A DNA stretch of 64,000 nt, taken from positions 5,705,001-5,769,000 of the forward strand of contig NC_092579.1 in assembly GCF_037975245.1 (NCBI RefSeq). The letters run 5' to 3'. Under the pieces are notes generated by a model that had not been told where the DNA came from, made no database searches, and was given only the letters and a program-made list of their open reading frames with translations. Position 1 is the stretch's first letter. Every line of letters begins with the position of its first letter. Source of the stretch: Apostichopus japonicus (lineage: Eukaryota > Echinodermata > Holothuroidea > Aspidochirotida > Stichopodidae). Below, in pieces: positions 9,661 through 35,300 of this stretch. A program made the position numbers and the translations under genes.

Positions 9661-12600
9661 ATGTACAAGAAAAAGTTAAAAAGTGTTCTTTTATCAATTC
9701 CCAGTATTAAGAAACCGTCTTGGCAGATCTTGAAGAAGAAAGTGAACCACTTAACAGTCAGATATTATTCAGCATCAGGATCAAATATATTATCTTTGGA
9801 AGGAAGGGGTCTTTACCATGACATGGTACCAGCAAACAGGTTAGACACAAATTAAAATTCATAATTATTTACTGTATACTTACAGTTGCAAATATTATTA
9901 GCATTATATTAGGATAGTAGACCTTACAATCTGTCTTGTAAAGGTCTATAGTAAAGTATTTAGATTTATAATTGATACAGAATGTTTCGTATACATCAAG
10001 TTTCATTTTCTTTAATTTTTGCTAATATTTATTTTGATCAGTAATTTCATGAATAGTGGTTCAGTCTAACATTACTGGCGGTTTAACTCTAAATTTCAAA
10101 GAAGGAAGAGACAAAAAATAAATAGTTACATCAGTGGTTTTGATATCTGTTTGACTACCAAGTAGCTTCTTGAAAACATGTCTACTGTTTACTTCATCAA
10201 TCTTTCAAACACCTTTTTCTTTTCCCTTTCCAGCGCTTTTGCTCTATCTAAGCAGCTCAATTCTTCACCACAGTGTATCTATTGTGGTTTTGATCCAACA
10301 GCTGACAGTCTCCATGTTGGCAATCTGCTGACCCTGATTTCTCTAATCCATTGTCAACGAGCTGGCCATCAGATCATTGCCTTGGTAAGAAATAATTGGG
10401 AGGGGAGGTTCAAAATCGACCCCCCCCCACCTTTCTCTTGCCCATCCTTTTCGATATCCATATAAGCAGATTTTACTTTTTATTGATCTTATATTTGTCA
10501 ACAAATTTTTAGCTCCTGTTACAGATACCTTTAACTGATGATATAATTAATATAATGAAAATAAAGTTATTCAAACCTTCATTTTCCAGATGATCTTGAA
10601 ATTATTGATTTTCTAGTGTTTGTGTAACTAAAAAACTAACTAAGAAAACGCTAACCTGAGGTTTTTTCAGACAAGGTTGCTCAGCACTGAGAGCAAACAT
10701 TAAAGTACTGTACAAAGTACTGCAGTTACTAAAAGACATAATTTTGTGAATATTTAGTTTCTTTTTCATTGTCATAGATTGGAGGTGCAACTGCTATGAT
10801 CGGAGACCCAAGTGGCAAATCGTCAGAACGACCAGTCCTGAACATAGAAGAAGTGGAGTCAAATGTTAAAAGACTTGAAGTAAGTCTACACAGAATATTC
10901 ACCAATCATGAGAGGTATTTCTGGAGGAAACAGAAGAAGTTATTACCATATAAGTGAGTGACTTATTTGTGGTTACTTTTGTAACTATTTTTTATGTGCA
11001 CAGTTTGCTTGATTCCTGTGCGACATTTGTACTTTATGCCTTCTTGTGGTTTTTGTTTAAAAAAAATAAAAGAAGTTTGGGATGTATTTACGTCATCCCT
11101 CTCTGAATTACGTCTCTCATCTCTACAGATGTACACCAATAAACTTAGGGCACAAAATTTGGTAGCCTATTTGAACTGCACCCCGATTGACCCACTCCTG
11201 AGGTTGGGGCTACAATATCACCTACATCTATGATTCAGAAAATACACAAGGGCAAAATTCTCATCTCTTGATGCTTGTGAGAATACGTTCATGGGTAATT
11301 TAGACTTCCCATCCCCTCTCCCAACTTCTCCATGGTGATACTACTATAAAAAATTGAAGAGACAGGAAAGGATGTTACCTGTCGTTACGTTGGTTGTCAA
11401 ACTGAATGACCTATTAACTTAATCCGTTGAGCAGCTAACAGATACATTCTTTTCTCTACATTTTTGTCATTTTTTTCTTACCTTCGGAAGAATTCTTAAC
11501 AACTCTGATTGGTACAACGATATCAACTTGGTTAAATTCTTGTCTACGGCCGGAAGACATTTTAGAATGCACAAGTTACTTTCCAGAGACAGGTACAGTT
11601 TTTTAGTCTGTGTTTCCTTTATTAATCTTTATTTTGTTTTTGCGATGTCAATAATATTTTGTCGTTATTATATTATAATATTTTGTCAATAATATCAATA
11701 ATATTTTGTGATATCAAATTTTCAGGTGTTCTTTTTAGAGGGAATTACTTTTGGAGTAGAAGTTGTTAAGGTTTAACTTTGTTTTGCAAGCTTTCTGCCT
11801 TTGGAAATTTGGAGGATGAAATTGGGCATACTGTAACCTTCAATTGAAGAAAACATTAGTTTTGTGGGACACTTCATTTTCTGACTTGTATGAACTTGTT
11901 AGTAACTCAGAAAAATTACAGTAGTTGTAACTATAGATATGAGTTCTCTTGCTCATCAAAGTGGACGAATGAAAAATAACCAGTAATCCTGTCTTCCCAT
12001 GTTTAGGGTGTGTGGAGAATCAAATTGCTACAACAGTACTCTCACAGACCAGGGTCAGTTTCCTTATGAATATTCATAAATGGAGATGGTCATGTTAATT
12101 AAGTAACTAGGTTTGAACACTATTCAGGCCAGGTAAGCATGGCCTACTCAAATGTCAAATCAAATCCATGTAATGACTTTTGTCTTGTTTATTTTCCTAG
12201 TGTACGGTCGAGGCTATCCAGTCCAGATGGTATGAGCTTCCAAGAATTCTCCTATCAGATCTTCCAGGCTTACGACTTTCTGCATCTTCATCAAAACCAT
12301 AAATGCATCCTTCAGGTAGGTCAAAGGTTAACAAACAGGTCAGATGGCAGATTTCTGTATGTAAAAGTTGTGTCGATATTATTTTTTTGTTTTAAGTGTA
12401 TTAATTTATCAAAATTAATTCATAACCATTCCTGTTACTGGCATTATACGTAAGATCCACCCAATTGCTAAATTTGGTCAGAATATTTTAGCATTGTATT
12501 TTGTTTATCAAGTTTGAACCCAAAGACAACCTGGTCCTTCATGTGACACCTTTTTGCTCATTGTTTTTATTTTTGGACTTAGAATTCAGAGTATTTCCTT

Positions 12601-15600
12601 AAAGAAACTATGTGTCTGATGTTTTTTTTTTTTGGCAGGTCGGTGGCTCCGATCAGCTCGGTAACCTTTCTTCCGGTCATGATTTTGTAAAGAGAGTCAC
12701 AGGGAAGGATGTCTATGGTAAGCTTAAGTTTTGAGAAGCAACTGGAGTACAGTACCTGTCGGTCGTGTATCAAGTCATGTGTATCAAGTCATGAACTGAG
12801 TTACAATTTAGTCAATGTTGCTAGAATCCAATGTTTTACTACAACTCAGTTTCATTTGAAGATATGTTAATGCTCATAGTAAGATGCATCAATAAAATGA
12901 GGTCCTGTACTCAACAGTGTATAGGTGATGTGTGATTCCTCTTGCCCCCTACCCTCAAACCCCCCCCCCCACCTAGCTCAAGAAAGCATCATATAACGCA
13001 GCACTGAAACTAACATCAGTGGGTTAACATTGTGTTCCCAGGTATCACCATTCCTCTTCTGACAACATCCCAAGGTGCAAAACTGGGCAAGACAGCAGGG
13101 AACGCTGTGTGGATCAATGATGATAGGACGTCAACCTTTGACCTCTATCAGGTACTGTATATGCACAATGTCATCATCAGGTCACCAATGCTTACGATAT
13201 TTTAAAGTTGTATTACCTACAGGTGGAAAAAGGAGGGGGGGGGGTTGGAGGGATGAGGGGAACTTCTGACTTTGCTTATTGAATGTGGTTTTTACAGTTG
13301 CTAAATTTGCTCAGAAAAGAGAAAGAAAAAAGAAAACACAATACATATATGTCAAGGAAAATGATTTAAAAAAAGAACATTGTTGCCTTTTTCTCTTTGT
13401 TCTTTCAGAGTTTTGTTAGACTTCAGGATGCAGATGTCGAGAAATATCTTAAGGCTTTCACTTTTCTATCTTTAGCTGAAATAGAAAGCGTTCTCAAGAC
13501 ACATAAAGTAAGTCAGTCACTTTAGAAATGGCAGAAAATGTTTTGAATAGAAACTTTTCAATATTCTTGCTAGTTGTTTTTTTGTTCTGTTTGGTAATCA
13601 ATATGATCTCCCTACCCCCTTCCTGCCCTAAGAAACCCCTTTTCCCATAATCAATTTCTTTCACTGCTTATATGTTGGTAAATGTTATGCCCTATAAGGT
13701 TTGTATCACATGTCTAGTTATTATTTTTTACTTCTTTTTTTCTCTTTAGGCAAATCCAAAGATCAGATCTGCACAGAAGTTGCTTGCTGAACAGGTTCTT
13801 CTTCTTGTTCATGGAGGTATGTTTTTATAAGAGTACTCAGCAAGCACAAAATAACCACTTTTATATGGGTATAATTGTTTTAAATCAAAGATTGTTGCTG
13901 TCAAGTAAGTTTGATGTATGTACATATACTAATAGCAAACTGGAAGCATGGCTTAGGGATGGGGTTGGGTGGTGGTGAGGAGTGTGGCATAATGAAGAAT
14001 CTAAAAGTCTGTAGGTTACCTCATACTGTTATTGAAAAGGGTCACTTCCATAAATTATGTTCCCAAATACCCCAACAGTATGCATTTAATTCCCATCTCT
14101 CCCAGTCTGACATTAAGCGTTGAGTAGTGTGTTGGGAATATGTTATCACGCTTCCACACACTTTTAGCTAAAAGCGTGTATGTGTAATAGGTGGGTTTTT
14201 TTGTATTCCTTATTGAAGGTAATAGGAATCTGTGTGGTGGTGTGTGTGTGTGGGTGCGTACGTGTGTGCACGTACTTGGTGTGTGGACCAAGCTGGGTGA
14301 GAAGACCTAATTGTTTTTTGTGGACCACCATTATGGCATGACACCTTTATGGCATAACACCATTATGGCATATCACCATTATTGCATAACACCTTTATGG
14401 CATATCACCATTATGGCATAACACCATTATGGCATATCACCATTATGGCATAACACCATTATAGCATATCACCATTATAGCATGACACCATTATGGCATA
14501 TCACCATTATGGCATGACCCATTATGGCATATCACATGATGACATATGACACCATTATGGCATGACACCATTATGGGCATAACACCATTATGGCATATCA
14601 CCATTATGGCATTACACCATTATTGCATGACACCATTATGGCATGACACCATTATTGCATAACACCATTATTGCATATCACCATTATGGCTTGACACCAT
14701 TATGGCTTGACACCATTATGGCATGACACCATTATGGGCATAGCACCATTATAGCATATCACCATTATGGCATGACACCATTATGGCATTACACCTCTAT
14801 TGCATATCACATTATATTCTGTCTGTTTAGTACTTGTTCTGAACCATTGGTGTTTGAGCTCAGGTTCTTTCTTGTGTGATTTTGCTGTTAGGAATGACTT
14901 TTGGCAGAATGTTAGTCTTGATTTGTTATTTGTCCAAGAGAAAAGAAAAACTTGAGTTCTAGTAAGGTTTCTATAGCTATTTCAGTTTTCAAGATATTCC
15001 TATTAAATCTCTGGAATGCTCCTTTAAGGCTAATTTGATGATGCTATCAGCTCCTCAGATCAGCCGTTAATGTTAATTTAAATCACATGATATAGAGATC
15101 GTAATAACTGAATCAAAAACATGCACTTTTGACTTCATAAAAACAACAGAGTTAAGTGGATGATGTTCACCGATTATCCTAGACATTTTTGCAGACATTT
15201 TATAGACTTGCCATTTGAAACCATCAAAATGTTAGCCCATTGAGTTTTGTCTTGCATTGAGGAACTGACCTAACGGTCTGTATATTAGCCTACACATTCC
15301 AGTCATTTTAACCGATGAACCCCAACTGTTTAAAGGGTTATTTCTCACAAATTAAAAGTACCATAACTATGACCTGAGCTTATCGAAGTATTTTTTTTTA
15401 AACGGTCTACAACATGTCAAAATAAATGTTGTGCCTTTAATACAAAGTATGATTTAGTATAGGTATGTTTTCAATCTGCAACAGATTACAATAATATTTT
15501 TTGGTTGCTTGAGTCGCAGCTAAAGTATTTCTCTATATTTCTTCATCTTCAGAGACTGGTCTCGATCAGGCTTTAAGATTAACGGATGCCTTGTACAACT

Positions 15601-17155
15601 CGTCTCCCAGTACTTTAGAAGTATTATCTCCAAGTGAGCTAAGCGATTTGTTTAAGGGTGCCCTTACGCATAAAGTAATCCTGGAAGCCGGGACTACCGT
15701 GCTGGAACTTGCCGAGAGGATTCAGTGTGCCCCAAGAGGAGGTAAGATTGGTGAAGCAATCCCTCCTTCTCCTTCTTCTCTTCATAATCTCTTGACAAGA
15801 GTGGCCTTGAAAGAGGTTTCTTCTCATAATGATTTCTTAGAAGCACAAACATAACTGGATAACACAGTTTGATGAAAACACTGATTGTCGCACATCTGTT
15901 TCAGAAATGTTCTGTTTTTCTTTTTCCACATTGAAAATAGTGACATATAGAAATAGCTGGGAGTAGTTTACTGTGCTGGTTAGTGTGTGACAAGATTAAT
16001 AAGACCTCTCACATTGGATGTCATAGTGGTTAGAAATGATTACCATACTGTTGTTCTATATGTTCAAGAGGTACAAGGGAGAAAGGGCGGGGGGTTGGGG
16101 GGCATGGGTCTTAAGTAGATGATGAGGATGTGAAATGAGTCCCTTATATATATATACCAAACAGAATTTTAAATAGTTAAAAATTACAACTCTAGTTCAA
16201 ACCAATTGTGATGAAATTGATCAGTGGTGGATATTTAGGTGGGAACACTGTCGTTTCTTAAAATTTGTTACTTTTGCCAAATATAAATTATCGTTTGTTT
16301 TCACATAACATGAGACAATCCTGTTTTCCTGTTTATTCAGTCACGGCCGAGAAGTTAATCAGAGAGGGCGGCCTTTACATTAACCAAGAGAGAGAAAGCA
16401 ATCCAGAAGCTGTGTTGCGGAGAGGGGAACATATCCTGGAAAATGGATTGACTTTGGTCAGAGTTGGTAAGTAAATGCCATTGTACTGCTTTAAAAGTCA
16501 GCAGGATGAGGGAGCAGGAGGGAAGAAAAGGTCAGACTCAAGGGGAGGGGGAGAGGTAGGTGGAGGGTGTATAGGTTGTAAAGGTAGTGGGAGGATGTAA
16601 AGGTAGGGGGAGGGTATACAGGAGGGAAGTGTGGGGAGGAAGGAAATGGGTGCATGTAGTACACATGTGGGGTATATCATTGTTTGATATGGTGCATATT
16701 TAGTCGAGAGCTGTCGTGTAGGGAACGAGTAGACGTTATTGTCCTCTATTAATTTGAACTTAAAATGTCACTGAAAAGGATATCATTGTTCAAAATGCCA
16801 GTCAATAGTAGTGAATACCTGAGCAGGTTAAGTGGCGGAAGTCACCAGTTTGTCACACTATTTGGGGGGAGGGGGAGGGGGGAATGAAAACAAGATGAAT
16901 AAGAGTCGTTGTAAGTTATTACTGTATCAGTCACAAGGACGGAAAACACTGTTACAAGGTTATCCAGCTGTATTGGAAGCTTTCTAAGCATAAGGTGAAA
17001 ACTACAGCAAACACAGGCAACTTACACAAAAGGTTGCAGTTTAGCTATTCCTGTAACTGCAAAGTAATCTGCGTAATAGAGAAACATTACTAATGATCTG
17101 TTTTATGGTTTCATTGACAGGGAAGAAGAATTACTTCATCATAACATGGATTTGA
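9661..17155 (+). CDS. YARS2: Mitochondrial tyrosine--tRNA ligase, 12 coding exons, 475 aa
   Basis: Class I synthetase that charges mitochondrial tRNA-Tyr with tyrosine using ATP. Coding exons: 9661-9839, 10234-10384, 10778-10953, 11491-11592, 12201-12315, 12639-12717, 13042-13151, 13409-13507, 13750-13816, 15553-15741, 16341-16466, 17121-17155 (TGA). All junctions are in phase, giving 476 codons including the stop; vertebrate YARS2 is about 477 residues. Residues 74-90 hold the tyrosine-site and HIGH-type signature ([14 protein letters not shown]), 110-120 [13 protein letters not shown], 242-250 VGGSDQLGN, and 281-285 KLGKT, the KMSKS equivalent. The C-terminal 55 residues form the S4-like tRNA-binding part ([12 protein letters not shown] to NYFIITWI). 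The N-terminus ([20 protein letters not shown]) is basic and lacks acidic residues, as expected for a mitochondrial presequence. Exon 10778-10953 uses the second of two possible donors; only that one keeps the frame. Confidence 0.95.
14234..14282. repeat. GT-rich microsatellite in a YARS2 intron
   Basis: Imperfect (GT)n run with interspersed GTGGTG and GTACGTGTGTGCACGTAC; the last part is a short palindrome. It directly precedes the 16-bp minisatellite in the same intron. Confidence 0.7.
14322..14805. repeat. 16-bp minisatellite (CACCATTATGGCATAA) in a YARS2 intron
   Basis: About 30 head-to-tail copies of a 16-bp unit in the intron between 13816 and 15553. Variants alternate GGCATAACACC and GGCATATCACC in the first third, which gives a 32-bp higher-order period, while later copies use GGCATGACACC. 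A few copies gain or lose a base (GGGCAT). There is no spacer diversity and no flanking cas-like gene, so this is ordinary satellite DNA. The rest of this 1.7 kb intron shows nothing else I recognise. Confidence 0.9.
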
Positions 17156-17159
17156 AGGA

Positions 17160-20353: not shown

Positions 20354-23300
20354 TTAATCCTCCTTGACACCTCGAGAGCTCAAAGCCAACACGATGGGTC
20401 TCATAGCAGGTTGGATGTGTGGAAACTCCTGGTTGAGTCTATCCACAATGGTTGCAATAGTATGCATCTTGTCCGTCTGTTTCTGCATCTCTGTTTCCAG
20501 AGCTGCTTCAGTTTTACACAGTAGGTTGTACTTCCCTTCTTTCAGTGACTGGTAATTCTTCACTCGTTGCTGCCTTGCGAGAATCTCAGTCATGTTCTGG
20601 AAAACAAAACGAAACAGAATCACAAGTGAACAGAATCATACGTCTCACAAGTAAACTCAGTCAATCACATCAAAGGTAAGTTAGAGAGAAAAAAAATCCC
20701 CAAAGTTCAGTCTGCACTCTTAACCCATTCTCTGAAGATATGCATTCCAGAGATATTGCAGAATTCACTCCCTCATCTAAAATGTGCCAATTTTATATGT
20801 AGGAAGGATACTGTGCTTGTCAAAGCACCTTTCATGGAGACTTCCATTACTCCGTGATCATAAGCAGCGGTGACCTACCATCTATTTGACCTCCTGTAAC
20901 CTGTGGATGTCTCCATCGAGTGTATCCGCCCCCCCCCCCATGCACCTTCCATCACTCCCTGATCATATGGGACGGTGACCTACCATCTGTTTCATGCAAC
21001 CTTTTGATATCTCCATCAAGTGTATCCCCCACTCCCCCCCCCCAACCTTTCATCACCCCCTGATCATAAGCAGTGGTGACCTACCATCTATTTGACTTCT
21101 GTAACATTTGGATGTCTCCATCGAATGTAACCACCCTTCCCCCCCCCCCCACCTTCCATTACTCCCTGATCATAAGCAGTGGTGACTAACCATCTGTTTG
21201 ACCTCCTGTAGTCTTTCGATGTCTCCATCGAGCGTATCCGCAGCGCTCTGGAGCTGGTGGAAGTCCTTCTGTTTATCCTCCAACTGTTGGCTCAGTAACT
21301 GCTGGTGACCGCGAAGCTCGGCAATATCCTTGTCAGAATTGTTGGCATCCTACAAAAAAACACCAACAAATTTTTCGAAACTGCATTTAAAATAGATTTT
21401 GTCACACATATTACAGAGCATGATGATGCAATAGTTATAAAGCTCCCAATAGGTACTGAATATTCCATATTCCTTTCATCCATTAGCTAATAATGACCAA
21501 TAGAATAGTGGCTACATATATCAAGAAAAGAACGCTATATTCCTATAGTATGATTTACTGTTACTGTTGCTGTTCTTGTGGAGGAGTAAGGTGAGACCAC
21601 AGGGAGAGAGGATGGGTGGAGCGCTGCCTCCAATGCTACTGATGTCTGTCGTTAATTGTGTTTTTATCAGAAAGATAAGAAACAGAGATCAATTTTGTGG
21701 TTTCCTTCCATGAGTTAGGCTTAAACTTACTCTACCCGTATCACAAACTTACCTGTTGGACTTGCTTGATTCTCTTCTTGAGCTCTGCTAGTTTCTTTTG
21801 GAACGCCCCTTTCGTCTCCACCTTCTTATTCAGCTTGGCCTGCGCATCGCCCCTGGTGACGATGGTGTCCCTCCTGGACACGGCCTTCTCCATGTCCTGT
21901 ATGAGTTTCTCCTGTAGCTTCATCAGCTGGGCGTGACGTACTTCCATTCGATGGATCTCGGCATTCATGGCCCTGATCTCCCCCTGACCTACCTCAGAAT
22001 CTACAGTAGCCTTGGCCTCTCTCGCCAGTTGGGTCTTCTTTTCCCATAACATGATTTGTCGCCTATGGAAGAAGGTCATTTTGTGATTAGTTTTTTTAAG
22101 TACACAAATACACAACTTTTAAAAGGAAATGAAGCATTAACACTCACACATGAGAGATGACTCAGCTCCAATCTTCTAGAGAATTGCGATCATTTACGCT
22201 AAAATTGTTACAGAAAGCTCAATACTTTTTGTTAATGAAATATTTTGAAATAATAAAATACAGAATGAATGAAAACTGACGTAAGAAAATAACACTTATT
22301 ACCAAAACAAAAATCTCATCCAGCCAAACATGTTTTAAGTCTTTCTATCATCCTCCAGTCAGCACTGGCGTACTAAGCAGAGGGGGGGGGAGGGGGGAAT
22401 GAGAATTCCTAAACATATAATCAGTTCAAATCTTTGCCAAAGATGGCACCATTTTGCATCCAAGCCACTTTTTATCAACAAAAATTTCTCAAAGAGGCGG
22501 GGGACACCCCTCCCCCAGGATGGCATCCCATGCACAGGGTGACAAAGGAAGGATCTTCCCCCCGGGTGCCAACTATTCTAGGTATGCCACTGCAAGAGAG
22601 GGACAAATATGTAGATATGCCTTTCTTTGTCATCACAAGATTTGTAAAATTAGACAAACTAAAACTTGAATCAATAAGGCCACATTTTGAGGTCTTCTGT
22701 TGATGAAAATCTTCAAGTTGCCTGGCAAACTCACAAGATAAAGATGACAGAAAAGAATTGCTCTGCAGTTTAGTCAGACACAGAAATACCGACAAGGAAA
22801 TCGTAACCAACTTTACTACTTTGATCTTACATAGATCAATAAAAGTGATGAAACAGTATGAAATAAACTATGACTTACTCCGATTCCACCAAGCTATTTA
22901 GAAGCCGTTCCTTCTCTTCACTCAGCTCCTCCAGTTTGTTCTGCATCTCGATGGACTCCTTCTCAGCCTCCTATTCGTGGAAACAACAACAAAATGAATG
23001 TCTAATTAGCATAATATCCCCTGAGACTTTGTGAGCAAGAACAGAGTTACCTGTCAATGTAAAACTACACTATTATTATCACTGCTAGATTATCCAATAG
23101 GGCAGATCAGACAATTCTCTCAGGATTTTCAATGTCAAGGGGCTTCTGTGAAAATTTCCAGGGATGGCATGCCAACTTTCTTGTTTTGGGTTGTGCCTGC
23201 AGGACTTGGGGAGAAGGGAAGGGGGAGGGGATGCATATGGTGCCATAGGGCCTAAGAGGGTGTTAATCTTGCATCGACTTTCACATACTGATGCTGTTCT

Positions 23301-26300
23301 TTGATGGGTCATAACTGATGTCAAACTTCAGTGACAAATTCCTGTTAACTTCCTTTACATCTATTTTTTTTTTGGTTTATTCTCACAACCCGCACCACCC
23401 ATCAACTCATTTATTCCAGTATGAGTATCGACTATCGTCTTAGAGTTACTCCTGTCTCCGCATGTTTTGTAAGTACCAAGCTTCAAAAAGTACTATACAC
23501 TTCTCATGGCAACATTCGTCCAATAGGACAATAATAGTAAATCTGTCCACAGAGATCACATGCAAGATGAAATACAATCAGATGAGCCCACAGCAAGAGT
23601 AACAAAGTCATCTGTCCAATAAGACCTTGAATACCTTTAGGGAGAGGACAAAGTCAGTCTCAATGAGTATGTTATCTTGTTCGAGGTTCTCTTGCAGTTT
23701 CCCTTCCTTCGTCAGTAGCTGGTTCAGTTTCAGCATGTCGTTCTGCATGTTACGGATGTTTCTCTCTACGTCCTTCTTCTCCGACAGCTGTCCCTCAATC
23801 TCACCTGAGACAAGGATCGAAAGAGACGGACTCAAATTTATCCTCAATTGGTAAATGCTTATATTGAAGGAGTAAGCAAGCCCATCCATCACTGATTGCC
23901 ATAAGTATGTGATAGAGACTTTCATGGGGTGAGTATGCCCCACCCCTCCCCCTCCACCACCCGACCATACCCCATCCCCCTCCAAAACCTAACCCTATCC
24001 CACCCCCTCCACCACCCTACCCCATCCCCTCCACCACCTCACACTATCCCATCTCCCTCCACCACCCAACCCTATCCCATCTCCCTCCACCACCTCACCT
24101 TATCCCATCCCCCCTCCACCACCCAACCCTACCCCTTCTCCCTCCACCAACTCACCTTATCCCATCCACCACCCAACCCTACCCCATCTACCTCCACCAC
24201 CTCACCTTATCCTTTCCCCCTCCACCACCCAACTCTACCCCATCCCCCTCCACCACCTAACACTATTCCATCCTCTACCACCCAACCCTACCCCATCTCC
24301 TCCTCCACCACCTAACCCTATCCCATCCCCCTTCACCACCCAACTCTACCCCATCCTCCTCCACCACCTAACACTATTCCATCCATCCTCTACCACCCAA
24401 CCCTACCCCATCTCCTCCTCCATCACCTAACCCTATCCCATCACCCCTCTACCAGCCAACCCTACCCCATCTCCATTCACCACCTCACCCTATCCCATCC
24501 CCCCTCTACCAGCCAACTCTACCCCATCCTCCTCCACCACCTAACACTATCCCATCCCCCTCTACCACCCAACCCTACCCCATCTCCTCCTCCATCACCT
24601 AACCCTATCCCATCACCCCTCTACCAGCCAACCCTACCCCATCTCCATTCACCACCTCACCCTATCCCATCCCCCCCTCTACCAGCCAACTCTACCCCAT
24701 CCTCCTCCACCACCTAACACTATCCCATCCCCCTCTACCACCCAGCCTTGCCCCATCTCCACCACACAGCTACAGCTTACATCTTATTCTATTTGGAAAG
24801 GTATCATGGTTTTGGTATCAAGGTTTTGGTTTTAATCACATGATTACTCCTCCCCTAAAGCAACTGTAATCAACTCACTTTAATCTTACCAATCCTGCAG
24901 AATGTTTTAAGTTAGTTTGCAATGCATGACACAAAGACACCCTTGAGGATTGTAGATTGTACCAGATGAATGATAATAAGCAAATAATTAAAACTTCCAT
25001 TCCCCTCAAGTCGTCTAGACACTCTTGTTTGTCATACTAGTATAAATTAAACGTTAAAAGCAAATCCAAATCTTGCACAATGTTTGATTATTCCTTGGAA
25101 ATGGATCTCAACTTAGTCAACACAATAGATTACATTACCATGGGAACACAGAATGGGAATGGTATTGAGAGTATACAAAATCAACACAAGCAGCTGCACA
25201 CACACTTACAGCTATTGTACTATGCATGCAGTCTCTAGGTAACCAGACACTTGGAATAGAGTGTGTATACAGCTGGATATTGAGTAATACTCTAACATTG
25301 TTTATCTACACTGTCGATCAACGAAAAGAGGCTCTTCGCTACGAGAATATTAAGTCACCATTCCAAGCATTTCAAGATAAACTTTTGCAAACTTTTGACA
25401 TGTTTGGTTTCCTACAACTAGATATCACATGGACTTGTGTAATTATGCAAATAATGATAGAGAATTCGTGATAGAGCAATCTCACATTAGTATATATATA
25501 TATATATATATACATATATATATTTTTTTTTAATTCAAAAATAAATTAAAATTCAATGAAATTAAATTAAATTTAGAATAAAAAAAATTAACCCCCAACA
25601 TTAATTTTTTTTTTAATTTTGAAGTTTTAATTTGTTTGTTCATATTATCTTAGAATTTTTAACCACCACCCCCCCCCCCCCTTCTCATGTATCTAGTACT
25701 GTCAGATAATGGCAGCGAGGAATCTAAAATCATATGAATACATTAGATACATAGATTTATCATTAGTTTTTTTGTTCTTGTTATAAGCATTGATCATATT
25801 TACCTTCAATTCTCATCTTCTTCATGTGCAGTATCGTCAATGCCTTCTTCATGTTGTCGACCTCTCGTTGCTGGTTGTTCTTGTCCTTGCTCATCTTCAC
25901 TAGCTCCAGCTGCTGTCTCAACCAGAACTGCTGGAGGTCCGCAATGTCCTGGGTCCTGGTATCGATGGACTTGGTCAGAGAGGCCACCTCCGCCTCTAAC
26001 GGTCCCAGCTCCTCACCCTGACGACAGACAGTATTCGATTAACATCATTCAACAGTAGCAAACATTTGACATGAGAAAAATCTTTAATCCAAATGAAAAA
26101 CAATTCCCCTCTGATTGATATCCTAACTGCCATTATCATCAACATGACACTAATTTCTGATTAGACTAGTAACCTTGGTTTCACATATCATATCACAGTC
26201 TTCTCTACTCCCAAAACTCACTCATGAATCCCTCAAATACTTAACACTTCACCAGGTCTGATGAGAAAGGGGATGGGAGTAGATGGAGGGGGTTGAACTG

Positions 26301-29300
26301 GATCTACAACCCCTGATTCATCTTAATGAGCAATACATTAAAACCAGACAAAACAAATCCTTCCACCCAACCATATTTCCCCCTTCCCCACTCCCCCAGC
26401 ACCCAATAAAAACCAAGATGAACTTTCAGGTTTGACTCACCCCTTGTTCAATGGCCCACCCTTACCCCCCCTCCCCCTTCCCCAAGCCCCCAATAAAAAC
26501 CAAGATGAACTTTCAGGTTTGACTCACCCCTTGTTCAATGGCCCACCCTTACCCCCCTCCCCCTTCCCCAAGCCCCCAACAAAAACCAAGATGAACTTTC
26601 AGGTTAGACTCACCCCTTGTTCAATGGCCCACCCTTACCCACCCTCCCCCTTCCCCAAGCCCCCTATAAAAACCAAGATGAACTTTCAGGTTAGACTCAC
26701 CCCTTGTTCAATGGCGATGGCTTCCACTTTCTTATTATACTGATCAATTAGACCCTGTTTGCGCTCTATCACGGCATTTCTCTTGATGATTTCTCCCTCG
26801 CTGCGGCTGATGATGTCGTTCTTTTCGTGTATCTCTTTGTCCAGCTCGTCCAGGGTTTTCCTCAGACTCTCCACTCTGGTGCTGGTGTGTGAGTATTCCA
26901 GGGTATCCCTGGATAGTTCATTCTCTGCTTTAGCTCTGGCAGCTTCCTGCAAATTGAGGGTTAATTTATAAAGAATGATGTAGAGGATATGTAGAGGGGA
27001 TCCTAAAGCCCTCCCCCCCTCCTCCCTCCACCCTTCTCGAAAAAAATCAACAGTAGATAGTATCTCTTTCCCAAAGGTAACATCTATCAACCAATCATAG
27101 AGTTATAATATACCTTCGTCCAGTATGTCATCCAGTTACAGAGTTGTTGACAATTCATAATAATGGACGTTAAATATGAATCTAAGAGACACTTCGGTCA
27201 GCTTGCGGCTTTGATAAGCCAATGATGGCTTCTTAGCAAGTTCCTGCTTGCAGGAGTAGCTGAAAAACATACATACATACCTTCCAGGTTGATTTGTTTG
27301 ATTAATTTATAAATGGGTAATGTCACTGGACAAGTCAACATACGTGCATAAATTTATTAAAAGACTTATCGGAGCATAATTTGGCATCAGATCACTCACC
27401 AGCTCCGCGATGCCCTTGCGAACTTTGCCGGCCATTTTGTTAGCATAGTAGGTGACCTTATCTGCGGTCAGTTTGCTCCTCATAGCATCCATAATGTTCT
27501 CTTCTAGTTGTAGCTTCTCCTGGTACTCTCTCTCCGTTTGTTTGCGGAGGGCAACCAGCTCATTCAAGCGAAGTGTCTTGTCCTGTAGAGGGGAGGGGGG
27601 GGGGGTTAATATGAATACTCTTGAAGTAAATGATGAGGGCGATTCACATAGTTTTACAGACTTCCCGGTGGGCTAATGCTTGGAATCAAAAGTGCAGGAT
27701 AACTAAAGGTTGAGTAACATTAATACAATAGGTAAGTTTTGGAGACACAGCTTAGGGCAGCACTAAGGCGTACGTGGAACAAATAGAGGGCAGCCAAGGT
27801 AGAAAATAACAGAGTTGGGCAACCAAAGATTGAAATCAGACTGCAGGGCAGGGCAGGGTCTGAAATTACAGTGTAGAAGAACCACTGTTGAGAATAACAG
27901 TGTAGGACAAGCAAGGCTTGAAACACAGTGTATGGTCACTAAGGTTTGGAATTAAAGTGTAGGACAGCCAAGGCTTGAAATCACAGTGTAGGGCATATAG
28001 GTTTGTCATCACAGTAAAAGGCAGCCAAATCGTGAAATCACAGAATTGGGCAACCAAGGCTGGAAATCAGACTGTAGGACAGCTGATGTCAAATTACAGC
28101 GTAGAGCAACCAAAGTTTGGGACCAATGTATGTGACTTCTAAAGTTGCAGTGTATGGCAGCTTAGGCTTGACATCACAGTGTAGATGGACTTAGGGTTTG
28201 GAATCACAGTATGTGTAGTAAATGTTTGGAATCACAATACTGGGCAGAAAAGTTTTGATATCATAATACATATTGAGATATTCTTCAACATGTCACACAT
28301 AACGTAAAAAAAACATGTTAAAAGTGGAAGATATTATCAACTATATAAAAGTGTCATAAAGTGATCACTAAACTATCAGCAAAATATGTTGCACTTTCTC
28401 CACAACAACTAAAAAATTATACTTTACCAACAAAAATCAAAACATTAACAATACAGATATTTTATCCAGTCATTAATATCTTAGGTAATATTTCAACAAT
28501 TTTCTTGCTTGTTATCAACTTCAAATTATCCCTGCATTTTTTTTATTTTACGTTACTACATAATTCCTAGGAGCATCTGCTCCCAATTTACCGTGGTAGC
28601 TCGGTTTAGATTCTGTTCTGTCTCGTGTAGCATCCTGGAGTATGCGCCGTATTCTTGTTTTAACTGTTCTTGCTTTGTTTGGCTGGTGGTAATCTGTTTT
28701 CTCATACTGTTGATATCAATTTCATTCTTCTGAAGCATCAATGTCAATGTTTCGTTATTCTCCTGTTCCTTCTGAATGGATTTCTTGTAGCCCTCTATCT
28801 CTGTCTGTAAGGACTGGATCTGTTGTCTCTGTTGGCTGCAAATATCCATGAAAATATTGCAATAAGTATCAAATGGAATTTGGAGAGGGAGGGGGGTGGG
28901 TTGAGGGGGACTAACAATGGATACAGAGTTGGAATGATGCATTTAATATATGATTAATATATAACCCCAACCCTGAAATAGAAAGTTCAACCCAAAATGT
29001 GCTAAAAAGATTGAATCTTGATAAAGGAGTTTTATGTTATATTTCTATGTTAATTAGACCAGGTTGCTTTTCTTCAAATTAAGCACTTTATATGTTGTTT
29101 ATAGATGTTCACGTTATCTGGAAGCCTGTTGGGAAGTTTACTATCATCGAACCCCCTGAAAGATTTATATTATTATTATTATTATTATATTGGGAACTTT
29201 TGAAGCAATTCAGCTAAGTAACTTTGCGGGTCTAGACAGACGGAGATGGACAGAGGTGGGCCCTTTCCTTCCAGAGAGGAAGAGAACTTTAAGCAACCAG

Positions 29301-32300
29301 AGGTGGGTTACCTTAAGGCTTCATTCATAGCAGAATGTGCCTCGTCTCGTCTCTTCATCCCGATCAGACTACTGTTCCATTGCTGTAGAAGCTGCTTCTT
29401 CTCAAGCTCAATAGACTAGGAAATAGAAGAAATGGAAATGTTGGGGAGAATTCAAATAAAAGCAAAGTATTGTATACTCCTAGATATGTTAAACATCCTC
29501 GGCTAATCAGAACAATGTTAAGAACAATGTGGGGAACTTTCTTTAGATGAAGAGGGTTTTGTATGTAAAATATCACATCATTTCAAAGATAATTTAATTC
29601 TTCTTTTCTGTTCTAATTGTGAAAATAAATATCTATAGTGTTTGATCACATGAAATATTCAAAGAAGTTGGTACAAAGAATGAACTATTTTTAAAGTGAT
29701 CAAAGACAAGAATCTGGTGTAGCAAATATAATATTGCTGGATACAACTAACAGTCAATGTGCTGAGTCCCACCCCCTCCCACCCCCCACCCATCATCTAA
29801 CTTTACTAAATCACCATTTATATGTAGATAACCATATCTGTTTTAAGTTTGCTAAAACCTGTTGAAAGACCATTCCTAGATTTACACCAAACTTGTTTAA
29901 TGTGCGATAAGCTTCACTGATGAAACTACTTGCGAGATGTGAGTGAATGCTCATTTGATGAAATTAAAGCCTCACCTCAATTTCTGATCGGGCTTCAAAG
30001 AGAGCTTCTTTAGCTGCTTTGGTCTCTTCATTCTGAGCCTGACACTGTGCTTCATAGAGGGCGATCTGCTCTCTCAACTTGTCAACATTTTCGGTTAATC
30101 TGTCCACATAGAGATCCTAGAAGCGAGATACGGTTCATTTTAATCACAGAGCAGGAATCAACGAGGATGAAGACATCTTGAGATGAGTTACTCATCTAAG
30201 ATAGATTTGGTGTGGATGGTTTGTCTAGTGTTGCTACGATAATCGTTTTCAATATCGGTATCGGCCGATATTTGCAATATCGGCAGCATATCGGTATCGG
30301 TAAAATTTTGCCTAATTGCCGATAACAGCAAACCGATATTGAACTTTTCTTTTTAACAGCAGTGCTACTTCTTTATACTTGCAATGATCTGTTAATCTGC
30401 CTAAGACGATCCATTTCTTTAGCGTCAGTTAAACTCAGATTCATTTTCGATTAATATCCATGGAAAGCTGACCCTCCGTAACCTCTAAAAACATGTTTAC
30501 GGCGCGCGAATAAAACCAATGACCTTCGTGAACCTTGGCCTACACACAGCATTAGTGCAGCATATATACACTGTACTAACCATTCATTTTCTCAAAGGCC
30601 GTGAAAACCTTGAACATGATGTATAACTGCACAGTTCAGCAGTGTTGGAAAACCTTGTTCAATTTCCCGCGAACACAAAATACTGACAACTTTTTTTATT
30701 TAAATTGTCACGAAACTGATAAATTTTAAAATGACAAGTTAGAGTACCTATGTAATGTTATAAAATGAAAAGAGATTTAATCTGTCTTTCAATCTTTAAA
30801 AAGTGCAACTTACAAAACTTCCGATATTATGAAACAAACAACGTTCAGCAAAGCCCTGTTTCTAGACTGCCTAACAATGAATAGCGTGCACTATGCGTAC
30901 ATTTTTACAACTGCAGTGCTTAACCCTATACCCAACTACCACGGTACATGTGCTGCAAATTTTCCCAGGTACCTTCCCAAACAACTGTGAGCTCATCCCC
31001 TGTGTAACACCTGTTTGTTAACATTTTTTGGCACTTTGCCAGGGAACTTTTTTGTTACGTGAGATCAGTAACCGCCGAGGTGGTTAGGCTATTTGCTATA
31101 CACTTAACTATGGTAGGATATTATTTTTTCCGTATTTTTGGAAATTCTAGAAAATTTCCAAACTTCCTTTTCCCCCCGCTTAACAACAGATGTGGTCTTA
31201 CGGTATATTCATAAATGGATGCACTAGAGCCTTGTTTACATGACATTAGTTGCATTTAGTACGATATGCCAGTTTTGCGTGAATTTTTCGAAAGTGTTTT
31301 GCTCGAGTTTCGTAATATTTGAAAAGGTGTACCACCTTACTTTCCGTACACAATTGGTCATTTCTCTACTGATTTTCAATTTTTTTTTTCTCTATACGGT
31401 CAAGTGAATAAGTTGTACATTGAGTATAAACTCAATAAATTATAACTTTTACATTGTGATCGACAGTTCGTAACCTAATTAAGATGCAATTTTGCAAGCA
31501 TACGTTAACACTGTAAGCAACTTGTAAGTCTTTACGATGTTAAGGCTCACATTTACTGCGTCCAGTTTATTTTGACTGTTAAAAAATATCGGTATCGTAT
31601 CGGTATCGGACCGATATTGGGATGATACTATCGGATATCAAACAAAACCGATATTGGTGATATCGGCGCAACACTAGTTTTGTCACTATTCTATGGTCAA
31701 CACAAGTGTTTAACCTTAAAACTGAAAACCTCAAATTTTTCATTTTACCTCAAGAATAATATAAAGAGATATTAACAGTACAGACAACATAAACAAATAT
31801 ATATATATTGAACTTGTGGGATTATATCTTGCAAACCAAGAGTAAAATATGAAATTACTAGAGTTAGTACACCACAAAACACTTCCTCCCTCTCCCTTTC
31901 TAAGTACTTATTGATGTTTATTGGTTTTGTATTATGTGGGTATTAGGCAGCGTAATCAAACTAAGAGGCTGTAGATTTGGCTTTGAATTTCAGTTCATCC
32001 AAGTCTTGGCTTATCTTGCTTCACAAGGATTCCAGATCTGGACCTCAATTGACCTCAAATAACCTTCGACCTCCACCAATTTTCAAAAGGTTTCTTGCAG
32101 GGAATGAAAAATTAAATCTGAATTTGAATTCAGTTTTAAACGAACTTGTTTCTGTTTGTCCATCTCAGCTGTTGCGACTTCACTGTCCGCCTTCTCCGCA
32201 GCCCTTCTCATGACGGCGATGTCGCTGCGAATGTCCTCCTTGGCATTGGTCATGTAGAACAAATGGAGAGAAAGGTTCTCTAGCTCTGTCTGAAGGGCAG

Positions 32301-35300
32301 ATGCTATAAATAATAATAATAATAATAATAATGATAGTAATAATAACAATCATAATAATAATAATAAACAGTTCTTATAGAGTGCAACTTTCAATAAAAT
32401 CTCGCCGCGCTGTACTTAACCCTGGTCATTGGTAACTTGTCACACTTACACACCAAAGTGTGCACAATTCAAACAATCTCTCCTGGGGCACTACAGTGCA
32501 CCACAGCCACGTGTCCCCTGGGGGACTTCCCATAGGGTGCAGCCACAAACCGTCGCACGCAACTATATTTACAAGTCACCTCGCAAGTCCCCATTTATAC
32601 ACCTGGGTGAAGAGAGGGAATGGAGGTGAAGTGCCTTGCCCAAGGACACAACGTAACGGTCTGACAAGGGCTCGAATCTGTAATCCTTAGATCACAAGTC
32701 CACTGTCTTAACCACTTGACCACTACGCCCTCACAAGTAATATAAGAAGAGATGACAAACAAATAAACCCTATGGACATGAAAATGTCAATTTGGTGGAG
32801 AAATGTAGGATAAGTTAGAAACTTGGTATCACAAAGCTACAGAAGGAAAAGCAAATAATTCACAAACAGTACTCTAGACTAAGTAGAACACCACTTAAAC
32901 AGTTGATGGGACGCTTTAAAGGAACCAGTTGGGGTCATTAATGTAATTATGACACTTTGCTTCCCTTAGCAACGGGATCCACACTCATTTTTACTTGGGT
33001 AACTCGTTCCTTGTTACCTACAAACGTTCTCAAATATCTGAAACGCAGTTAGCAAACTCAACAGTCAATTATAACTAATTCTCCTAAATGGGAAATATAT
33101 CTCCAAATGGTATATAGAGTCAGATCAAAGCTAAGTGGCTTTACATTCATGGGTATCAGCCACTTGGGTTAATTATGACAGAACATTGGTGACACTCGAT
33201 CAAGATGACAACTATTAAAACAACCAGATATCATGAATGACAAGCAAAATATCACATGCTCATAACAGACTAAATATATATTCATCCCCCCCTACCCCCC
33301 TAAAACAAAAAATATATTTCAAAGCAACTCATTACCTTTTCTTGTTATATTTAATCACTGAGTGACTCTTCAAACTAGCAGCATTTTGATGCTTACCCAA
33401 AGAAAGTGAGATCTTATTCTTCTTACATGTTGTTCATTTTGTATACGTATGTATTTTCATTTGCTACATGACATACAGTACATCTTATCATGGTACAAAA
33501 TCTATATATATAGAACAGTAATGTGCACTTCAAAAAGAGAATCAAATATATGCAAATAACAATTCTGATGAGCTACTGAATATTCATTGTACAAACCCTC
33601 CTTCTGTTGCTGGTTAATGTTCTGTTGAGTCTGTTTGTACATGCTACGTACATCAGTCAGTTGTTCCTCCGTTTGTTGGCGCAGCTTTTGCAGGCCGCTG
33701 CGCTGATCGTGGTATTTCTCGAGGGTCATCTGGTGCTTGGCCAGCTCCTGCTGCATGCCGTACATGTTGACACCGACCTCCTCCCGTTCCTTCTGTTTGG
33801 TCTTCAGGGCTTCTCTAAGCTCCCGTACCTCTAGGTTGATCTTCTCCAGTTGCTTATTAAGATGTCCTCCCAAGGCGTCTTGGAAGCGTCTCATAAGCGG
33901 CTATAAAAGAAGATGACACGAGACACATTTTATATGTCCAGTTGGTTTACTAACCCAGCTCCTCTAGAGACAATTCAAAACATTAGTGTCTTTGGTTTAA
34001 CTCAGTGGCATAGCTAGATCATTGGCACCCCTGAGCGGATCTTTCCTTTGTCACACCGTGCAGGGGATGCCATCCCGTGGAGGGGTCTAATGGATCTATC
34101 TTTGGAAAAGCTTGAATTGATTACGCAATGATTTACCAAAACATCTAAATTTTCTTTGGGGAGTCCTAGGGAGGGGGCTGTGGCATGGCATCCCCCCTGA
34201 CTGGTACCTAGGGCGGACTGCCGCACCCCTCCCTCCAGTTAGCACGCCACTGGTCTTACTTTACTGTTCGAAGATAGTCAGCTTTAACACCTGACTTCCA
34301 CTCTTCAGGAACACTAAATCTAATCTTTAATTGAATTGGACAAATAACTCATGCACACAAAACCTGTAGAACATTTCAACTGCCTGATAAGCACAAAAAA
34401 CTCTGAACTACCTTATATAAAGCATAACTAACTAAATTAGTAGCCCTGGTACTTCTTAACGACAATCACTCAGAACGGAATTAGAGTATGAAAATCACTT
34501 CAAGCAAAACACTCATTCATCCCATTTCAGCCCCAGCTCTCTCATACCAGGAGCGTAAGCAGAGCAACTAATATTATGATGCTAAAGGTTTAACACTCGT
34601 CTAAACAGGTGACGAATGCACAATGGAAGAGGATAACACCATGACTACATAGTACGTCCAAGAAATTCCCCCTGGGAATCATCCTGAGCATGAAAAACCA
34701 TACGTTACTGTCCCATGCCACACTGGCCCTATTATCAGCCCCAAATACTCTCACATGATTAACAGTCAAAGCAATTCAACCAAGACATTATAGCTGAACT
34801 ATAATAACTAGCTCATACCAAGATGTTTGGAGTGACAGTCATGCAACCTTGAACACTTACCACCCTTCTCGAAACATGGGTTTTGACTAATAAAGATGAA
34901 AGATTGTAACAATGAGTATATAAAATTGATAAATAATACATAACAATTAAGATCCTATTGCTATTCAGTCGTCATCATCAAGCATTACCCAAAAAATGGT
35001 CAGCCAAAACTCTGACAAAAGAGGTTAAAAAATTTGAAGGCTCACATGATCGGGATCTAACACCACCATCTCAGTTTCATCATCAGAGAGATCCGAGCCA
35101 TCTTCTTCACCATCTTCTTCTCCATAACCGGCGCCTTCTTCATAATCTTCGTCTCCGTCTAATCCGGTCTCTGTCTGCCCGCCTAAAAAAAAAAAAAAAA
35201 AAAAGGAAAGAATTTCAGGATTATGGAGGTCATACTGTCTTCAATAGTCACAAGCTGATCTTTGCTTCCCAGATAATGGTCTTAAGGTAAAATTAATCAA

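Follow-up and report, generated by a model that had tools for sequence, protein, structure and literature searches.

The donor of exon 8 in CCDC40, a cilium gene, is present in four tandem copies in Apostichopus japonicus, which raises the questions of how such a string of donors arose, which of its members is spliced, and whether the spare donors are selected or merely tolerated. We analyzed this locus within a contiguous stretch of 64,000 nucleotides (hereafter, the window).

The exon 8 donor of CCDC40 and its array

The gene was modelled by homology to solved chains (Table 1). Joined together, the minus-strand exons between 35182 and 20354 give 900 codons and one terminal stop, and the product matched two solved CCDC40 chains, 9fqr_Dz (E 1e-210) and 8j07_h3 (E 4.7e-201), as well as four further distinct solved sequences (up to E 1.6e-82). 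Exon 8 is bordered by AG and GT and maintains the frame of the model. Its joins to both neighbouring exons were gap-free against the two best solved chains, and so was the exon 13/14 join (KQM|NMTE); therefore, in both of the arrays described below, the productive splice would be at the exon-adjacent copy. In the third alignment, that of 7ju4_B (flagellar-associated protein 172), one extra residue is found at the exon 8/9 join. No Pfam family reached its curated cut-off with any of six peptides, and neither Rfam nor the tRNA scan gave a match within the window.

Table 1. Coordinates of the CCDC40 model, the two arrays and their donors within the window
Feature	Position	Strand	Description	Basis
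CCDC40 gene model	20354..35182	-	14 exons; N-terminal end tentative	Homology to solved chains
CCDC40 exon 8	26701..26946	-	246 nt, phase 0 at both ends; authentic exon-end copy	
Array 2	26379..26715	-	3.9 copies of an 86-87-bp unit	Tandem Repeats Finder, unit comparison
Authentic donor, GTGAGTC	26694..26700	-	First of four in transcription order	
Decoy donor 1, GTGAGTC	26607..26613	-	Donor at 26613, inside intron	
Decoy donor 2, GTGAGTC	26521..26527	-	Donor at 26527, inside intron	
Decoy donor 3, GTGAGTC	26434..26440	-	Donor at 26440, deepest in intron	
G-quadruplex motif, unit 1	26638..26664	- (sense)		Pattern match only
Further G-quadruplex motifs, array 2	26552-26577, 26465-26491, 26379-26404	-		Pattern match only
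Array 1	20841..21241	-	3.8 copies, unit ~105 bp, spans exon 13 donor	
CCDC40 exon 13	21191..21349	-	Authentic donor GTTAGT at 21190	
Array 1 decoy donors, GTAGGT	21084, 20983, 20878	-	Inside intron	

Several other features of the window were recorded. The donors of CCDC40 exon 2 (GTTTGT at 33597, 3.4 bits) and exon 3 (GTTCGT at 32146, 2.3 bits) are weak by an approximate matrix, although both joins fit the homologs. The intron between exons 3 and 4 carries, at 30250-31667, inverted TATCGG-rich segments ~1.3 kb apart, with arms 73-85% complementary, which resemble mobile-element termini. A large C-rich minisatellite (23938-24760; 28-bp unit, 172-bp higher-order period), with many quadruplex motifs on the sense strand, begins, in sense order, ~134 nt before the exon 10 acceptor. 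On the plus strand, a gene at 10234-17156 resembles mitochondrial tyrosyl-tRNA synthetase (YARS2; best solved match 2pid_A, E 1.6e-31) and has an intron with ~30 repeats of a 16-bp unit (14326-14815).

Over 26379-26715 Tandem Repeats Finder gave a period of 87 bp, 3.9 copies and 95% matches, and the spacings between copies are 87, 86 and 87 bp. In sense order, the unit consists of 15 nt of exon end (GCCATTGAACAAGGG), the GTGAGTC donor and ~65 nt of intron that close with a G-rich block. The 20-base exon-end/donor sequence CCATTGAACAAGGGGTGAGT occurs in four exact copies in the window, all on the minus strand (26435, 26522, 26608 and 26695), when 0.01 are expected from shuffles and none of 100 shuffles held at least four. 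Array 2 is hence a head-to-tail array with a unit well above ~10 bp, it takes in a real exon end together with the donor, as judged from the exon 8 model and the homology of CCDC40, and its extra copies retain a donor that is usable by sequence. An earlier note on this DNA had described four copies of a unit of ~87 bp whose decoys keep a perfect GTGAGT, and the exact repeats, the 87-bp periodicity and the intact GTGAGTC in all four copies bear this out. The left edge of the array, placed there at 26434, is at 26379, and the common exon part is 15 nt and not 14. The note had also taken the last copy for the real donor. The donor of exon 26701-26946 is real, but the order is reversed: because CCDC40 is transcribed leftwards, the authentic donor at 26700 is transcribed before the other three, and in both arrays the three decoys lie downstream, in the intron.

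A second array at exon 13 and the chance placement of arrays

The anatomy of array 1 at exon 13 is the same as that of array 2 at exon 8, so that one gene does carry two donor-spanning arrays of different sequence, as had been proposed. The difference between their units holds except for a G-rich junction block (~20 bp) that is common to both and gives the best match between the arrays (18/20 bp, E 0.007, low complexity).

In a placement test on a pattern chosen post hoc, the six arrays of the CCDC40 span (repeats whose period did not exceed 14, and overlapping rows of one array, being left out of the count) were put down at random. With founding units, at least two donor matches were obtained in 2.7% of the trials (5.3% when the 28-bp array was taken at its 172-bp period), and at least two donor-or-acceptor matches in 9.7% (17.9%). 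With whole arrays, these values rose to 49% for donors and 77% for donors or acceptors. CCDC40 and YARS2 together (11 arrays and 23 donors, periods under 14 left out) gave 6.3%. Two donor-spanning arrays of six in CCDC40 are thus somewhat more than placement predicts, and the earlier statement that they are unlikely by chance is only weakly supported: P is 0.03-0.06 for donors, 0.10-0.18 with acceptors and 0.49 with whole arrays, all on a post hoc choice.

We then scanned for other duplications by aligning 60-nt windows at the exon borders to 1500 nt on each side. The two array donors alone stood out (scores of 90 and 75, downstream), and 300 random positions gave a mean of 19.7, a 95% point of 24 and a maximum of 38. 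No duplication signal was observed at the other 11 CCDC40 donors (at most 22) or at the 10 YARS2 donors (at most 23), and the 13 CCDC40 acceptors scored at most 24, except for one of 38 in an ATT microsatellite.

Age, use and origin of the spare donors

In array 2, copies 1-3 share 96.6-97.7% identity with one another, and the copy deepest in the intron is 84-87% identical to the others, mostly owing to its G-rich tail, a pattern as would be expected of recent growth beside an ancestral flank. Among the four copies, the invariant columns were 15/15 in the exon part, 7/7 in the donor, 25/27 in intron positions +8 to +34 and 25/43 in the remainder. Conservation at the donor bases does not exceed that of the neighbouring intron (7/7 vs 25/27), and therefore the perfect donors of array 2 would reflect youth and not special constraint. 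The units of array 1 are 76-80% identical. In its three decoys the invariant columns were 7/7 in the donor, 39/58 in the exon-derived part and 19/27 in intron positions +8 to +34; set against the 58/85 of the exon-derived and near-intron columns together (0.68^7 is ~0.07), this may be a slight hint that array 1 leans toward donor conservation.

When the donors were scored with an approximate matrix, all four of array 2 reached 9.0 bits, and the authentic donor of array 1 (6.5 bits) fell below its three decoys (8.2 bits). The decoys being equal or higher in score, use of the first donor would not be explained by donor strength. Several more donor-like sites are present in the spacers of the arrays. 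Beyond the authentic donor of array 2 a stop is met after 12 nt (read-through peptide VSLT-stop), and beyond that of array 1 the read-through is VSHHCL-stop, so that any decoy use truncates the protein in both arrays.

From these data we consider it likely that array 2 is a near-neutral donor-spanning minisatellite, grown from a duplication of the exon border, in which the exon-adjacent donor is mostly used and the spare donors are tolerated and not selected. The array would have started as a tandem duplication of ~87 bp across the CCDC40 exon-intron border and later expanded to four units; since the extra units were added on the intron side, neither the exon nor its own donor would have been disrupted. 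Splicing would occur mostly at the donor next to the exon, the first in line, which is preceded by the complete exon and followed by G-rich intron, and the decoys would be removed as part of the intron. In a small share of transcripts a decoy may be used; these would run into the in-frame stop and presumably be degraded, and the array would be tolerated. The earlier note had offered either tolerance of or selection for redundant donors; the former fits, and the latter is not supported, in view of the early stop after decoy use and of array 2 donors that are no more conserved than the intron. Microhomology at the array 2 breakpoints was considered and rejected: the exon and the distal flank have GTGGAAG in common, but a shared 7-mer was also present in 5.8% of shuffled flanks.

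The G-rich blocks are a plausible seed or growth mechanism for the arrays, and a junction-linked or G-rich-DNA mechanism, which the earlier note had raised, is possible. The more definite proposal that G-rich DNA (prone to G-quadruplexes or R-loops) downstream of donors seeds such arrays, through a fork that stalls at a G-run and a strand that switches into the exon end, we hold only tentatively. The internal unit junctions of both arrays come after G-rich sequence, and both array donors have a G-run of at least 4 within 120 nt downstream, as opposed to 0/11 of the other CCDC40 donors (2/13 in all; Fisher P 0.013, or 0.040 when the YARS2 donors are added), but this comparison is partly circular, since the counted G-runs belong to the arrays themselves and none is present in the flank immediately past array 1. 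Furthermore, 3/10 YARS2 donors are followed by G-runs but show no duplication. Each array holds quadruplex motifs by pattern match, four in array 2 and one in array 1, and those of array 2 have 1- to 3-nt loops; quadruplex motifs with loops this short (at most 3 nt) are described as destabilising minisatellites in yeast (PMC5491262). Such motifs are, however, common in the window, with 40 matches. In a broader form, G-rich intron starts would seed donor-spanning arrays recurrently throughout the lineage and spare donors would accumulate, their strings being tolerated because the donor next to the exon prevails and transcripts spliced at a decoy are only discarded; CCDC40 would then present two independent cases of different ages (~97% vs 76-80% identity). 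We regard this extension as improbable.

Still more doubtful is that splicing at the decoys is regulated, so that transcripts with premature stops tune the output of CCDC40. The decoys are strong donors by score, any use of them meets a stop, and the human ABCA7 and IFI6 cases indicate that minisatellite donors can be used (PMC5954066, PMC4526556), but in array 2 the donors show no more conservation than their flank. Finally, misassembly of a single-copy border is very unlikely, for although tandem repeats are prone to it, the copies differ in substitutions and G-run lengths and are spaced at 87, 86 and 87 bp.

Donor-spanning minisatellites in other genes

In a limited literature search no published description of the CCDC40 donor array was found, and no paper on competing donors with hnRNP H. 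As the human ABCA7, CBS and IFI6 cases show, however, donor-spanning minisatellites are of a kind that is already known, and PMC2812944 treats tandem repeats located at exon-intron boundaries in human genes. As described in PMC5954066, intron 18 of ABCA7 carries a 25-bp VNTR that takes in the donor of exon 18, and one isoform keeps one unit, which shifts the frame and leads to a premature stop; the two frameshift isoforms are given as 14 +/- 6 and 2 +/- 1%, the 2% figure being probably that of unit retention. As in array 2, the repeats start at the donor of the exon, each unit has a donor GT, the decoys lie in the intron, and use of the donor of the next unit leads to a premature stop, in ABCA7 by a frame shift. 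Unlike array 2, with its four copies of 86-87 bp, the ABCA7 array is polymorphic, with ~12 to 427 copies of its short unit; it begins at the GT, and exon bases are unstated in the description given there, whereas the array 2 unit has 15 of them.

For human CBS, PMC2630376 lists a 31-bp VNTR, c.1444_1467+7(16_21), and a 68-bp duplication of an intron/exon junction. If the HGVS name is read as 24 exon and 7 intron bases, the CBS VNTR would be donor-spanning, like array 2, but it is polymorphic, with 16-21 copies. The minisatellite of human IFI6 (G1P3, 6-16; Turri et al. 1995, as cited in PMC4526556) supplies multiple splice donor sites; it resembles array 2 in offering several donors for one exon, and its downstream units are used. 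Donor use is experimentally known in IFI6, whereas array 2 is known from sequence. In potato, PMC4974935 describes a tandem duplication that copied splice signals, as in array 2, but there a new intron arose inside an exon, whereas here an existing intron was lengthened and no new one was made. Intron gain by tandem duplication was accordingly rejected for array 2: its copies lie within one intron, and the exon joins are gap-free in the two best CCDC40 chains.

Identical donor strings with one real exon constitute a natural test of splicing choice where donor sequences are equal, and having a younger and an older array in the same gene would help to date the origin of such arrays. Taken as a single case, array 2 adds a probable invertebrate example to a class known in human.
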